The position numbers were made by a program, and so were the translations under genes. A stretch of 42,314 bases of DNA from positions 1 to 42,314 of the forward strand of contig JAUXSK010000004.1 of the NCBI GenBank assembly GCA_030679995.1, written 5' to 3'. Of this stretch, positions 19,889-24,367 are shown one piece after another; position 1 is the first letter of the stretch; each line of letters opens with the position of its first letter. This DNA is from Candidatus Moraniibacteriota bacterium (GTDB taxonomy: Bacteria > Patescibacteriota > Minisyncoccia > Moranbacterales > UBA2206). Under the pieces are notes generated by a model, which was given only the letters and a program-made list of their open reading frames with translations, did no database searches and was not told the DNA's origin.

Positions 19889-20842
19889 ATGAAAATACTC
19901 ATTACGGGCGGTGCGGGCTTTATCGGCTCCAATCTGGCCAAGAAATTGATGGACCGGGGGGACCAAGTGGTGATGATCGATAATTTCAACGATTATTACG
20001 ATCCGCAACTGAAAAAGGACCGCATCAAAAAATATCTCAAGGGTTATAAGTTCAAGCTGTACAAAGGCGACATCCGCGACATCAAACTTTTGGAAAGGAT
20101 TTTTAAGACGGAAAAATTGGACAAGGTGATGAGTTTGGCGGCTTTGGCCGGCGTGCGGAATTCGCTATTGGACCCGCTCGGCTATGAAGATGTGAACATC
20201 AAAGGTACGCTAAATTTGTTGGAAATGTCGCGCAAATACAAAATTAAGAATTTCGTGTATGCTTCCTCATCTTCAGTTTATGGCAACAACAAAAAACAGC
20301 CGTTTTCGGAAACTGACAGCGTCGATACGCCGATTTCACCGTATGCGGCCACTAAGAAGGCCACAGAGCTTCTGGCGCACGTCTATAGCCACATTTACGG
20401 CCTGAACACCACGGGATTGCGCTATTTCACCGTCTATGGCCCATGGGGTCGGCCGGATATGGCTTTGTTCCTTTTCGCGGACGGGATCACCAAAGGCAAG
20501 CCGATCAATGTCTTCAATCGCGGCAAGATGAGCCGCAATTTCACCTACGTGGATGACATCGTTTCCGGCACCATCACCGTCATCGACGCCAACCTCAAAT
20601 GCGAAGTGATGAATATCGGCGGCGACCGGGAAGAAACCCTGATGCGCTATATCGAAGTCTTGGAAGAGAACCTGGGTAAGAAAGCCAAGAAAAAAATGTT
20701 GCCGATGCAACCGGGCGACGTGCCGTCAACTGTGGCCGATATCCGCAAACTCAGGAAGCTCGGCTGGAAGCCGACCACCCGCATCGAAGAAGGCATCAAG
20801 AATTTCGTGGAGTGGTATAAGGAATATTACAAAGTCGCGTAG
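19889..20842 (+). CDS. UDP-glucuronate 4-epimerase-like SDR
   Basis: An extended SDR of 317 residues that interconverts C4 epimers of a UDP-hexose, using bound NAD. The Rossmann motif TGGAGFIGS is at residues 7-15, then FNDYYDPQLKKDR, a loop typical of UDP-glucuronate 4-epimerases (LspL/Cap1J type), SSSSVYGNNKKQPF, the catalytic YAATK, and RYFTVYGPWGRPDMALF, again characteristic of that branch. No UDP-glucose 6-dehydrogenase is in the window, so the glucuronate substrate would come from elsewhere; UDP-glucose/galactose use cannot be excluded. It is closed by a strong terminator 30 bp downstream. Confidence 0.88.
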   Translation: MKILITGGAGFIGSNLAKKLMDRGDQVVMIDNFNDYYDPQLKKDRIKKYLKGYKFKLYKGDIRDIKLLERIFKTEKLDKVMSLAALAGVRNSLLDPLGYEDVNIKGTLNLLEMSRKYKIKNFVYASSSSVYGNNKKQPFSETDSVDTPISPYAATKKATELLAHVYSHIYGLNTTGLRYFTVYGPWGRPDMALFLFADGITKGKPINVFNRGKMSRNFTYVDDIVSGTITVIDANLKCEVMNIGGDREETLMRYIEVLEENLGKKAKKKMLPMQPGDVPSTVADIRKLRKLGWKPTTRIEEGIKNFVEWYKEYYKVA

Positions 20843-20871: not shown

Positions 20872-20905
20872 AAATCCGCAGGAATAAAAACCCTGCGGAT
20901 TTTTT
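20872..20905 (+). terminator. intrinsic terminator after the epimerase gene
   Basis: AAATCCGCAGG (20872-20882) pairs with CCTGCGGATTT (20892-20902), an 11-bp perfect stem with a 9-base loop running into a T-run ending at 20905. Confidence 0.92.
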
Positions 20906-20944
20906 GCAGATTAAAATTCGCGGATGTCGAGACGCGAGACTATA

Positions 20945-20973
20945 TTGTCAAAACGCGGATCATTGGTTATACT
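20945..20973 (+). promoter_or_regulatory. promoter of the mini-gene unit
   Basis: TTGTCA (20945-20950), 17-bp spacer, TATACT (20968-20973). The predicted start is at about 20980, exactly at the ATG of the 30-codon frame. It lies between two strong terminators. Confidence 0.72.
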
Positions 20974-20979
20974 TTGCAT

Positions 20980-21072
20980 ATGGAAAACAACGGAGATAAA
21001 AAAATGATGGAATGGTATTCCGTCCGGAAGAGTTATCCGGATGTTTTTGCTGGTTACTATGTGAAGCGATAA
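20980..21072 (+). CDS. orphan small protein of 22-30 residues with its own promoter and terminator
   Basis: A frame too short for the ORF track. From ATG 20980 it encodes 30 residues (MENNGDKKMMEWYSV...YYVKR), ending at TAA 21070. ATG 20980 coincides with the predicted transcription start and would be leaderless. ATG 21004 (MMEWYSV..., 22 residues) has GGAG eight bases upstream and may be the real start. The peptide is basic and aromatic-rich (Trp, four Tyr, Phe), with no membrane helix. It fills the space between a 17-bp-spaced promoter and a perfect intrinsic terminator whose stem begins at the stop codon, so the unit is complete. The alternative is a roughly 115-nt small RNA in which the frame is incidental. 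No family is recognised. Confidence 0.5.
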   Translation: MENNGDKKMMEWYSVRKSYPDVFAGYYVKR

Positions 21073-21096
21073 ATCGGGGATATGCCCCGATTTTTT
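21071..21096 (+). terminator. intrinsic terminator of the mini-gene unit
   Basis: AAATCGGGG (21071-21079) pairs perfectly with CCCCGATTT (21085-21093), loop ATATG, followed by continuing T-run to 21096. The stem starts within the stop codon of the small frame. Confidence 0.92.
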
Positions 21097-21148
21097 CTTT
21101 GGGATAAATACCAGTTAAAATTTAATTAAATTTAAAACGCGCAATTCC

Positions 21149-21174
21149 TTGCAAAATTCAGATGGATTTTGCAA
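21149..21174. repeat. inverted repeat upstream of the small membrane protein genes
   Basis: TTGCAAAAT (21149-21157) and ATTTTGCAA (21166-21174) form a perfect 9-bp inverted repeat with an 8-base centre. It lies 22 bp before ATG 21197. It could be an operator or a leader hairpin; there is no clear promoter with it. If the TTG at 21149 were the true start, the repeat would be coding. Confidence 0.45.
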
Positions 21175-21196
21175 AGAAGTCGCGACAATAAAGAGT

Positions 21197-21481
21197 ATGT
21201 TTTTTTCAAATCCGGCGGCAGATCTTGATTTCCTAATCTTTTTTTCGTTGGTAGCTCTGGCAATTTCGGCTGTCGTGTTTATCTTTGCCAAAAATAAATT
21301 TTTATCCTTGGTTTTGTTTTCGATATTGCTCAATTTTGTTTTTTATGGGAATGCTGGTTCAAGATTGTTCGATATTTATGACTTAAAATGGATAGTTAAA
21401 TTTACCTTAGGGTATTGGCCATACATAAACATCGCCCTTTTTGCGATTTTGGTAGCGGATTATATTAAAAATAAAAAATAA
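21197..21481 (+). CDS. small three-helix membrane protein
   Basis: About 94 residues from ATG 21197 (MFFSNPAADLDF), which is preferred over the track's TTG 21149 because the latter lies in an inverted repeat. There are three hydrophobic helices with a short lysine-rich C-terminus (VADYIKNKK). I do not recognise the family. The next gene ends similarly (WPIINLLLILVLIISHIRNKR here versus YWPYINIALFAILVADYIKNKK), so the two appear to be diverged paralogues. Both precede the surface lipase gene on the same strand. Confidence 0.62.
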   Translation: MFFSNPAADLDFLIFFSLVALAISAVVFIFAKNKFLSLVLFSILLNFVFYGNAGSRLFDIYDLKWIVKFTLGYWPYINIALFAILVADYIKNKK

Positions 21482-21540
21482 TAGTTAAAACAACGAAACG
21501 ATCCCGGAAAATTTTTTGGAGGGATTGTGGAAGCAAAAAA

Positions 21541-21834
21541 ATGGATAGCATAGGTTTGGGAAATGCGATGGTAAATACATTTTATTTAATTTTGTGGAGT
21601 ATATGTTTTTTAGGTGTGGCAATAATGATTAAGAAAAAAATATTCTTAGCTATTTTTGTTTGGGTGTCTTTGGTGAGTAATATTTTTTCCCATTATTTTT
21701 TTATGGGTAATTATCGATATTATACATACGTTTCTTATGATTTTATAAATAAAATATGGCCGATCATAAACCTCCTATTAATCTTAGTTTTGATAATAAG
21801 CCATATTAGAAATAAACGTGCCAAAAACAAATAA
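21541..21834 (+). CDS. small three-helix membrane protein, probable paralogue of the 21197 gene
   Basis: 97 residues with three hydrophobic helices and a basic tail (IRNKRAKNK). A GGAAG lies about nine bases before ATG 21541, and GGAGGG is further upstream. Its C-terminal third resembles that of the preceding gene. It overlaps the start of the lipase gene by 17 bp, so translation is probably coupled and the protein may act with the lipase at the membrane (inference). No family is recognised. Confidence 0.65.
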   Translation: MDSIGLGNAMVNTFYLILWSICFLGVAIMIKKKIFLAIFVWVSLVSNIFSHYFFMGNYRYYTYVSYDFINKIWPIINLLLILVLIISHIRNKRAKNK

Positions 21835-24367
21835 AAACAAACTGCTGGTATTTTTTTTGGCTCTTGGTTTGGTTTTTTCTTTTAGGAGCGCCAGTGCCAA
21901 AGAAACCATAAATATCGACACTGACACGACCTGGACCAAGGAAACTCCCAATCTGGTTTTTGACAAACCGGTGGTTATCGGAAGCGGAGCGACTTTGACT
22001 GTCGAAAAAGGCGTGAGGATAGTTTTTCAGGTGAATCCCGACCAGCCTTTTAATCCCGCGGGATTCGAGGTGCTTGACGGGAGATTGGTCGCAAACGGGA
22101 CGCGCGAAGAAAATATCGTATTCACTTCGCCGGACGACGGTTTCAATCTGCTGTTTAGGGATAACGATCAGACTTCTTTTTTGCGCTATGTGACGCTGGA
22201 AAACGGCGGTTTTATCCCGACCGTGGAAGGCAGCGGAGATTTAGTTCCGCGTTATCCGCTTTTTGAAATAGACGGCGGCAATATCCATATCGAAAATTCC
22301 AAATTCGCAAACAGCCGCTTCAAAGAAATGATCGTTGCGGATGTTCCGATTCAGGACGCGGAGGGGAACTATGTCTATGATGAAAATGACAATCTGGCAC
22401 AAGACAAGGCGCAGGCGGAAGTTATCAATTCCAATTTTTCCAACCAAACCGCAGTCGATTCCCAATTGGACTGCTGGGCCTATGACGAAAACACTGATGA
22501 GGATTATATCAATCAGGAATGCCTCAAGCGGGTGTATTTGAAGGATGATTGGTTTGGAGATGTTTTCGGGCCGACATTGGAGGATGATGATATCCAAAAG
22601 GGTTACTTGATTTCAGGTTTCCATTATTTGGATGCTTGGAAAACCAACATAGACATAATCAATCCGGTGGTGGTAATTCCTGGGATTATGGGTTCGGCCG
22701 AAGTCGATGGAATTTGGCAGATAGATCCGATTTTGCATATCTATGATGATTTGCTGGAATCTTTGGAGGAAAATGGTTACAGCCAAAATGAAAATCTTTT
22801 TGAATTTCCCTATGACTGGAGAAATAGTAATATTGATTCCGCTCAAAAATTACAAACAAAAATTGAAGCTATTCGGAAGCAAACCAAAATTTCAAAAGTC
22901 GATGTGGTGGCTCATTCTATGGGCGGGCTGGTGGCTAGGGCGTACATCGAGGGAGATGATTATGGAAATGACGTTGATAAAATGATAACACTAGGTACGC
23001 CGCATCACGGTTCGCCTGAATCATATCTAAAGTGGGAAGCGGGAGAGGGATTTTTTACTATGAATGAGGGACTGTTGAAACATCATTTCGAAATGGAGGC
23101 TTTGCATAGCGGATATATCAATGTTTTTGAGTATATCCAAGAAAGAATTCTTTCGGTGGGGGAATTGCTTCCCGACTATGATTATCTTTTTGATGTGTCA
23201 AAAAATTCTATGCGCAGTTATGCGGATAAATATCCGAGAAACGAATTTTTGGAAAAGTTGAATGCCAGCACTAATTTGGCAAAATTGGAAGGCGTTGATT
23301 TCACTAACATAGTTGGCGCTCTAGATGATATACAAAGCACGATTACCAGTTTAAGGGTCGTAGAAAGTGAAATCGAGGATCGTTGGGTGGATGGAATGCC
23401 GGAGAATTTTTATGATAATAAAACTGATAGAGGGTTGGTTAGTTATTATGGTGATGGTACGGTTCCGGAATCAAGCGCAGGTGGCATAGTGGCGGACAAT
23501 AAATTGGAATCCAAAGCGGCTCACAATGACCTTCCCACCGTTTCCCAATGTGCGATAGTCTCACTGCTTATACAAAAACAGGAATGCATCAGTGTAAACA
23601 AGACGCATATCCCGAACATCCTGATGTTCAATATTTTTTCTCCCATCGACATCCAAATCATCGCTCCGGACGGGAAAAGGGTTGGCAAGGATTTAGAGAC
23701 CGGAGAAATATACAATGAAATCGAAGGCGCCTACTATTCCGGTTATGGTACGGAAAATGAGTTTTTGACTATCCCCAATCCATTGGATGGAGAATATAAA
23801 GTTTTGACGCAAGGCACGGGAAACGGGGATTTCAAGATTGAAACGGTCAAAATTTCCGAGCAGGCGGATGGCTCGGCGCAGGAAGCAACAAAAGACCTGG
23901 TTGGAACGGCAGTTTCTGGCAGCCTTGATGAATTTACAGTCAACACCGCGGAGTTGGTAACGGTTGATGATGAAGATCAAGATGATTCCGATGCAGTTTC
24001 TGAATCTGAATCGTCCAGTGATTCCTCAGATGACGACGATTCATCCTCGGATTCTGATTCCTCAGATTCGAAAGAACATAATAATAATTCCTCTGCTGGT
24101 GACGGAGTGTCCGTTGCGATTGCTAACAGCCAGGGTTTTTCTGTTAATGACGGGCGGGATGTCGTTTCTAGCTATGCTTTGACACCGGAGGCTGGAAATG
24201 GCAATTGGTCTAATATTGGTGAAAATAACCAAAATAAAAAAGATGAAAAAGTTATTTTGTCTAATTGGGGGATAATTGAAATCATTAGTGGGATTTTTGT
24301 TGGGATTATTACGGTTTTCATCTTTCGCAAAAGACTGATGTTTATTTTGTCGAAAAAATGGTTTTAG
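21818..24367 (+). CDS. surface-anchored LCAT-like alpha/beta-hydrolase (lipase/acyltransferase)
   Basis: 849 residues starting at GTG 21818. A signal peptide lies at about 1-27 (cleavage after SASA), followed by a beta-helix-like region (about 28-175; VIGSGATLTVEKGVRIVF is typical). The hydrolase domain follows from about 285 (VVVIPGIMGSAEV) with the LCAT-type triad: Ser367 in VAHSMGG, Asp546 in GDGTVP and His569 in AAHNDLP. A beta-rich region is at about 615-700, an Asp/Ser-rich stalk at about 715-765, and a C-terminal transmembrane helix with a basic tail at 817-849. It should act outside the cell on lipid or acylated substrates, possibly of host or neighbour cells. The preceding gene overlaps it by 17 bp. 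The family call is good; the substrate is unknown. Confidence 0.86.
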   Translation: MPKTNKNKLLVFFLALGLVFSFRSASAKETINIDTDTTWTKETPNLVFDKPVVIGSGATLTVEKGVRIVFQVNPDQPFNPAGFEVLDGRLVANGTREENIVFTSPDDGFNLLFRDNDQTSFLRYVTLENGGFIPTVEGSGDLVPRYPLFEIDGGNIHIENSKFANSRFKEMIVADVPIQDAEGNYVYDENDNLAQDKAQAEVINSNFSNQTAVDSQLDCWAYDENTDEDYINQECLKRVYLKDDWFGDVFGPTLEDDDIQKGYLISGFHYLDAWKTNIDIINPVVVIPGIMGSAEVDGIWQIDPILHIYDDLLESLEENGYSQNENLFEFPYDWRNSNIDSAQKLQTKIEAIRKQTKISKVDVVAHSMGGLVARAYIEGDDYGNDVDKMITLGTPHHGSPESYLKWEAGEGFFTMNEGLLKHHFEMEALHSGYINVFEYIQERILSVGELLPDYDYLFDVSKNSMRSYADKYPRNEFLEKLNASTNLAKLEGVDFTNIVGALDDIQSTITSLRVVESEIEDRWVDGMPENFYDNKTDRGLVSYYGDGTVPESSAGGIVADNKLESKAAHNDLPTVSQCAIVSLLIQKQECISVNKTHIPNILMFNIFSPIDIQIIAPDGKRVGKDLETGEIYNEIEGAYYSGYGTENEFLTIPNPLDGEYKVLTQGTGNGDFKIETVKISEQADGSAQEATKDLVGTAVSGSLDEFTVNTAELVTVDDEDQDDSDAVSESESSSDSSDDDDSSSDSDSSDSKEHNNNSSAGDGVSVAIANSQGFSVNDGRDVVSSYALTPEAGNGNWSNIGENNQNKKDEKVILSNWGIIEIISGIFVGIITVFIFRKRLMFILSKKWF

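Follow-up and report, generated by a model that had tools for sequence, protein, structure and literature searches.

A candidate transcription attenuator in the leader of an LCAT-like hydrolase operon of Candidatus Moraniibacteriota

A short promoter-terminator unit and the operon behind it

The window, that is, the whole stretch of 42,314 nucleotides analysed here, carries a short transcription unit between an epimerase gene, which stops at position 20842 and has its own terminator at about 20873-20907, and an operon composed of two genes for small putative membrane proteins and one for an LCAT-like hydrolase. The features of the unit and of the operon are listed in Table 1. The promoter hexamers match the consensus at 10 of 12 positions, and the first base of an ATG lies 6 nt after the -10 hexamer, exactly where transcription is expected to start. 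The frame opened by this ATG reads MENNGDKKMMEWYSVRKSYPDVFAGYYVKR up to its stop codon, and it contains a second pair of start codons behind a Shine-Dalgarno sequence. An earlier inspection made without database searches (the sequence-only reading) had pointed out the promoter with its 17-bp spacing, the ATG at the predicted start, the second ATG preceded by GGAG, the terminator beginning at the stop codon and the location between two terminators, and each of these features was found in our analysis. The inner hairpin, which resembles a terminator, was absent from that description. The RNA of the unit is predicted to fold more stably than shuffled sequences (z -2.75).

Table 1. Coordinates of the unit and of the downstream operon in the window
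Feature	Position	Strand	Details
Unit promoter	20945-20973	+	TTGTCA 20945-20950, 17-nt spacer, TATACT 20968-20973; +1 expected at about 20980
Leader reading frame	20980-21072	+	30 codons, stop TAA 21070-21072; 22 or 21 codons from 21004 or 21007
Shine-Dalgarno GGAG and second start pair ATGATG	20992-21009	+	GGAG 20992-20995, ATGATG 21004-21009, 8-nt spacer; unchanged in the related genome G001
Inner hairpin	21021-21048	+	Arms 21021-21028 and 21036-21043, followed by TTTTT; terminator-like
Intrinsic terminator	21071-21096	+	Stem 21071-21079/21085-21093 and T-run; starts inside the TAA stop
Hairpin in the operon 5' leader, just before the first small membrane-protein ORF	21138-21184	+	z -4.3 for the window copy
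Putative membrane protein of 94 aa, first ORF of the operon	21197-21481	+	No Pfam match
Protein of 97 aa, second of like kind	21541-21834	+	No Pfam match
LCAT-like alpha/beta-hydrolase gene	21818-24367	+	Signal-peptide-like N-terminus; Pfam PF02450, E 3.9e-19

The promoter-terminator unit is real and stands above chance. Taken singly, promoter-like sites are not enriched (12 found, 13.3 expected from shuffles), and terminator-like sites are only in slight excess (10 found, 6.4 expected). When the two are combined, as a promoter matching at least 10 of 12 positions with a strong terminator no more than 160 nt behind it, the 42-kb window contains a single instance, and 4000 shuffles of the intergenic region that preserved dinucleotides gave none.

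The terminator and the next ORF are 100 nt apart, which leaves room for a weak separate promoter. The best candidate in the window after the terminator matches the consensus at 9 of 12 positions and lacks the A at the second position of the -10 hexamer. The small putative membrane proteins belong to a family of about 94-100 amino acids without Pfam match, members of which stand before the LCAT-like gene in many of the order's genomes. Two tandem copies are present in the window and none in G001.

Conservation of the unit and coding potential of its frame

The sequence-only reading had proposed that the unit might encode a new small protein, which could be checked by searching related genomes for the 30-residue sequence and by looking for synonymous-biased variation. 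The searched set covered the GTDB contig collection, IMG/VR and 131 genomes of the order, with a single one of the same genus among them, the Candidatus Moraniibacteriota genome G001 (match of MAG contig JAUXSI010000024.1). Besides the window, only G001 encodes the peptide in this set. The G001 unit is syntenic, being flanked by the epimerase and the LCAT-like gene as in the window. Both promoter hexamers are identical in the two copies, while the spacer between them is 65% identical. The leader from 20974 to 21009 is 94% identical, with the Shine-Dalgarno sequence and the start codons unchanged; the remaining body of the ORF is 72% identical and drifts at about the neutral rate; and the terminator stem is invariant, whereas its loop has changed. 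Thus, hexamers, start region and terminator stem are kept while spacer, loop and ORF body change, a pattern suggesting that promoter, start region and terminator are under selection.

The peptide itself is 63% identical between the window and G001, in contrast to 98.7% for the neighbouring epimerase. The frame is open and in register in G001. However, random substitution sets created a stop codon in 51% of the trials, so this openness constitutes weak evidence. The 19 substitutions separating both copies are distributed as 7/7/5 over the three codon positions, and 11 residues were changed, where random substitution would give 12.3 (P=0.30). Synonymous bias is therefore absent from this pair, and it is also absent from a second group of units, in genomes G006 and G018, described below. 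Moreover, within the ORF body, 10 of 20 residues are identical in the sense frame as compared with 10-15 of 20 in the other frames. Conservation is higher in the antisense frame (80%), which is also open; as it has no ATG, GTG or TTG start, this frame was rejected as a gene and used as a yardstick instead.

No credible match of the peptide was found in Pfam, PHROGs, NCBIfam, PDB, phages or IMG/VR, and no relative was detected outside the genus. A match of PHROG_23189 to the G001 peptide (E 0.0095) was attributed to chance, as this profile gives matches of similar strength across unrelated genes and the phage match has an E value of 7. Weak peptide matches in G055, G050, G073, G116 and other genomes were also discarded, since they lie within longer frames or have no evident promoter-terminator context.

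With promoter, start region and terminator unchanged while the frame drifts without synonymous bias, the proposal of a small protein finds no support, and neither of the two checks favoured it. A genuine mini-gene for a protein of 21-30 residues would account for the conserved Shine-Dalgarno sequence and start codons and for frames that stay open, in register, in G001 as well as in the G006 and G018 units. Given the lack of synonymous bias in either group, a sense frame kept no better than the others, the divergence of the peptide beside a nearly unchanged epimerase and the absence of any family match, we consider it very unlikely. As the Shine-Dalgarno sequence and the start codons are unchanged, initiation may nevertheless matter even if the sequence of the peptide does not.

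Units of like architecture before other LCAT-like genes

A first unit of like architecture was found in G006 when the regions preceding the order's LCAT-like genes were inspected, and a DNA search with this unit recovered a second copy in G006 and one copy in G018. These three units (G006a, G006b and G018), from genomes of the same family, share a TTGTCA-N17-TATAAT promoter and a GTG at +1. A further start codon occupies codon 10 of their open frames, which are 32-35 codons long and end in or at the terminator hairpin. In all five units, including those of the window and G001, start codons are thus present at +1 and at codon 10 of an open frame, the terminator hairpin lies in or at the frame end, and promoter, intrinsic terminator and structural genes follow each other in the same order. 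The upstream genes of the G006 and G018 units, named from their translated sequences, are smc-like, dnaK and ABC-2-type permease genes, while an epimerase gene precedes the unit in the window and in G001. Downstream of every unit, by contrast, lies a secreted LCAT-like hydrolase operon, with or without a preceding gene for the 94-aa protein. The epimerase was rejected as the partner of the unit because other genomes retain it without the unit.

The linkage to the operon is close. In G018, the ATG of the LCAT-like gene is located 32 nt past the terminator, which leaves almost no room for another promoter. No good alternative promoter was found after the terminator at any of the five loci, the candidates there being weaker than the unit promoter in all of them, although weak promoters may still exist. 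Most relatives devoid of the unit have a promoter-like site just before the operon, and G013 has a promoter similar to the G018 one which leads directly into the LCAT-like gene. At the equivalent place in G012, there is a promoter-like site followed by a different short leader and a terminator, an arrangement that is suggestive only.

The sequence-only reading had described a self-contained unit missed by ORF tracks, or alternatively a small RNA. The promoter-terminator transcription unit stands, but its description as self-contained is not supported. The small-RNA alternative comes closer than a protein. However, units of this architecture always sit immediately before LCAT-like genes, which points to a cis-acting leader rather than to a free RNA. 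An independent gene for a trans-acting small RNA of about 115 nt, having its own promoter and terminator and remaining beside the LCAT-like operon by chance, would agree with the completeness of these two signals, with a fold stability exceeding that of shuffles and with the absence of a coding signal. We hold it to be unlikely, because, at four loci whose upstream genes differ, the units stand in the same place right in front of LCAT-like operons, and because the G018 gene has hardly any space for a promoter of its own.

The modules of the second group are 84-90% identical (G006a/G006b and G006b/G018), whereas the N-termini of the LCAT-like proteins encoded behind them are less than about 30% identical (about 22% for G006a and G018). 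The module is therefore kept much better than the genes that follow it. At the three loci concerned (L123, L129 and L130), it appears as if it had been kept or exchanged independently of the gene. One could imagine a modular cassette of an uncultured Moranbacteria family, in which a conserved promoter-leader-terminator segment would be kept, or swapped by recombination, before very divergent secreted LCAT-like paralogues, and in which translation of a leaderless mini-ORF would gate which surface enzymes are produced; such a scenario is, in our opinion, improbable.

In sequence, the two groups resemble each other weakly, with 26-29 of 69 nt shared (P about 0.005-0.05). The best shared block, TATCCGGATGTTTTTG in one group and TATCTGAATGTTTTTG in the other, lies at an equal distance from +1, and a sequence model of either group (G000/G001 or G006/G018) does not find the other. 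Their common interpretation thus rests on architecture, spacing and genomic position and not on proven homology. Elsewhere in the order, one model, R1, gave weak and partial matches.

Probable attenuation of the operon and competing explanations

On balance, and partly by analogy with the G006 and G018 units, we think it probable that the window unit is the promoter-proximal 5' leader and transcription attenuator of the operon for small membrane proteins and the LCAT-like hydrolase. RNA polymerase would start at about 20980 and produce a structured leader of about 115 nt containing the short reading frame, and transcription would normally end at the terminator. Under some condition, formation of the terminator would be prevented and transcription would continue into the operon. 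The most likely trigger would be a ribosome translating the leader frame. This is the simplest candidate, given that the terminator hairpin contains or adjoins the end of every frame: a ribosome that trails the polymerase closely would mask the 5' arm of the hairpin, and expression of the operon would then follow translation of the leader. The terminator could also be constitutive, with leaky read-through.

The RNA offers alternative structures as well. The segment 21036-21048 can pair either with 21021-21028 or with the 5' leader at 20983-20994, which includes the Shine-Dalgarno sequence. All pairs of each alternative are kept in G001, with one two-sided change, which controls showed not to be significant with two sequences. 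No conserved antiterminator common to the five leaders was found, and the candidate predicted in the window, which pairs 21050-21055 with 21072-21077, is not retained in G001. These competing helices would suit a leader controlled by a ligand or a protein, similar to a riboswitch, with an incidental reading frame; short open frames are common by chance, and in G000, G006b and G018 the fold of lowest predicted energy is the long-range helix. However, in G001 and G006a this helix does not have the lowest energy, covariation lacks statistical support with so few sequences, and start codons recur at +1 and codon 10 in 5/5 units. Moreover, no Rfam family matched the window or the unit loci above the gathering score, the sole match being a tRNA elsewhere in locus L105. 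We therefore regard a riboswitch-like leader as improbable.

The preferred reading, attenuation, can be compared with known systems. The attenuator of the Escherichia coli trp operon consists of a promoter, a leader ORF, an inner hairpin and a terminator, followed by the structural genes, and the elements of the window unit come in a like order. However, the window frame has no run of codons for a single amino acid, no conserved 2:3 antiterminator was found, and the frame stops inside or at the terminator, whereas the trp leader has its stop codon well before it.

Switches that pair a leader frame with conditional termination are known, and each follows a logic of its own, as illustrated by bmrB-bmrCD (PMC4191407) and by the upstream ORF of a Sinorhizobium meliloti DUF1127 gene (PMC12218461). 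The bmrB leader of bmrCD in Bacillus subtilis comprises, like the window, a promoter, a short leader ORF, an intrinsic terminator overlapping the 3' part of this ORF, and an operon. There, a ribosome-mediated transcription attenuation with a predicted antiterminator and anti-antiterminator operates, in which slowed translation raises read-through (PMC4191407). In contrast to bmrB, no conserved antiterminator was found for the window unit, and its ORF is shorter and may be leaderless. In S. meliloti, attenuation dependent on the upstream ORF was proposed to monitor translation efficiency, and the likeness to our unit is the premature termination between the upstream ORF and the gene; the mechanism there needs C-rich codons near the start of the upstream ORF to become accessible, whereas in the window the terminator lies at the frame end and no C-rich element is evident (PMC12218461).

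A limited literature search yielded no paper describing leader-peptide attenuation in Patescibacteria. If our reading is correct, these units would make up a small family of candidate attenuators that govern a lipase-like surface hydrolase operon in an uncultured lineage. More generally, a promoter-ORF-terminator mini-gene that a scan picks out as isolated may be the attenuated leader of the operon behind it, and a check of the neighbouring genes in relatives can tell.

Several minor observations concern the regions around these leaders. An exact 19-base string of the leader is present in two viral contigs. DnaA-box-like sequences (TGTGGATAA or TTATCCACA) occur upstream of several promoters, just before the promoter at L123 and L130 and also at L099, L105 and L112. 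At L134 (G031:C14:1-400), between an epimerase and an LCAT-like gene, a 13-nt inverted repeat (ACCCTATGGAGTA ... TACTCCATAGGGT) extends over about 100 nt. Finally, a hairpin lies just before the ribosome-binding region of the 94-97 aa ORF at about 15 loci of the order, including 21138-21184 and 21490-21540 in the window as well as L067, L068, L069, L098, L099, L105, L122 and others. These hairpins are divergent in sequence but have a predicted stem, with z values mostly between -2 and -6, and may possibly represent a second leader element of the operon.
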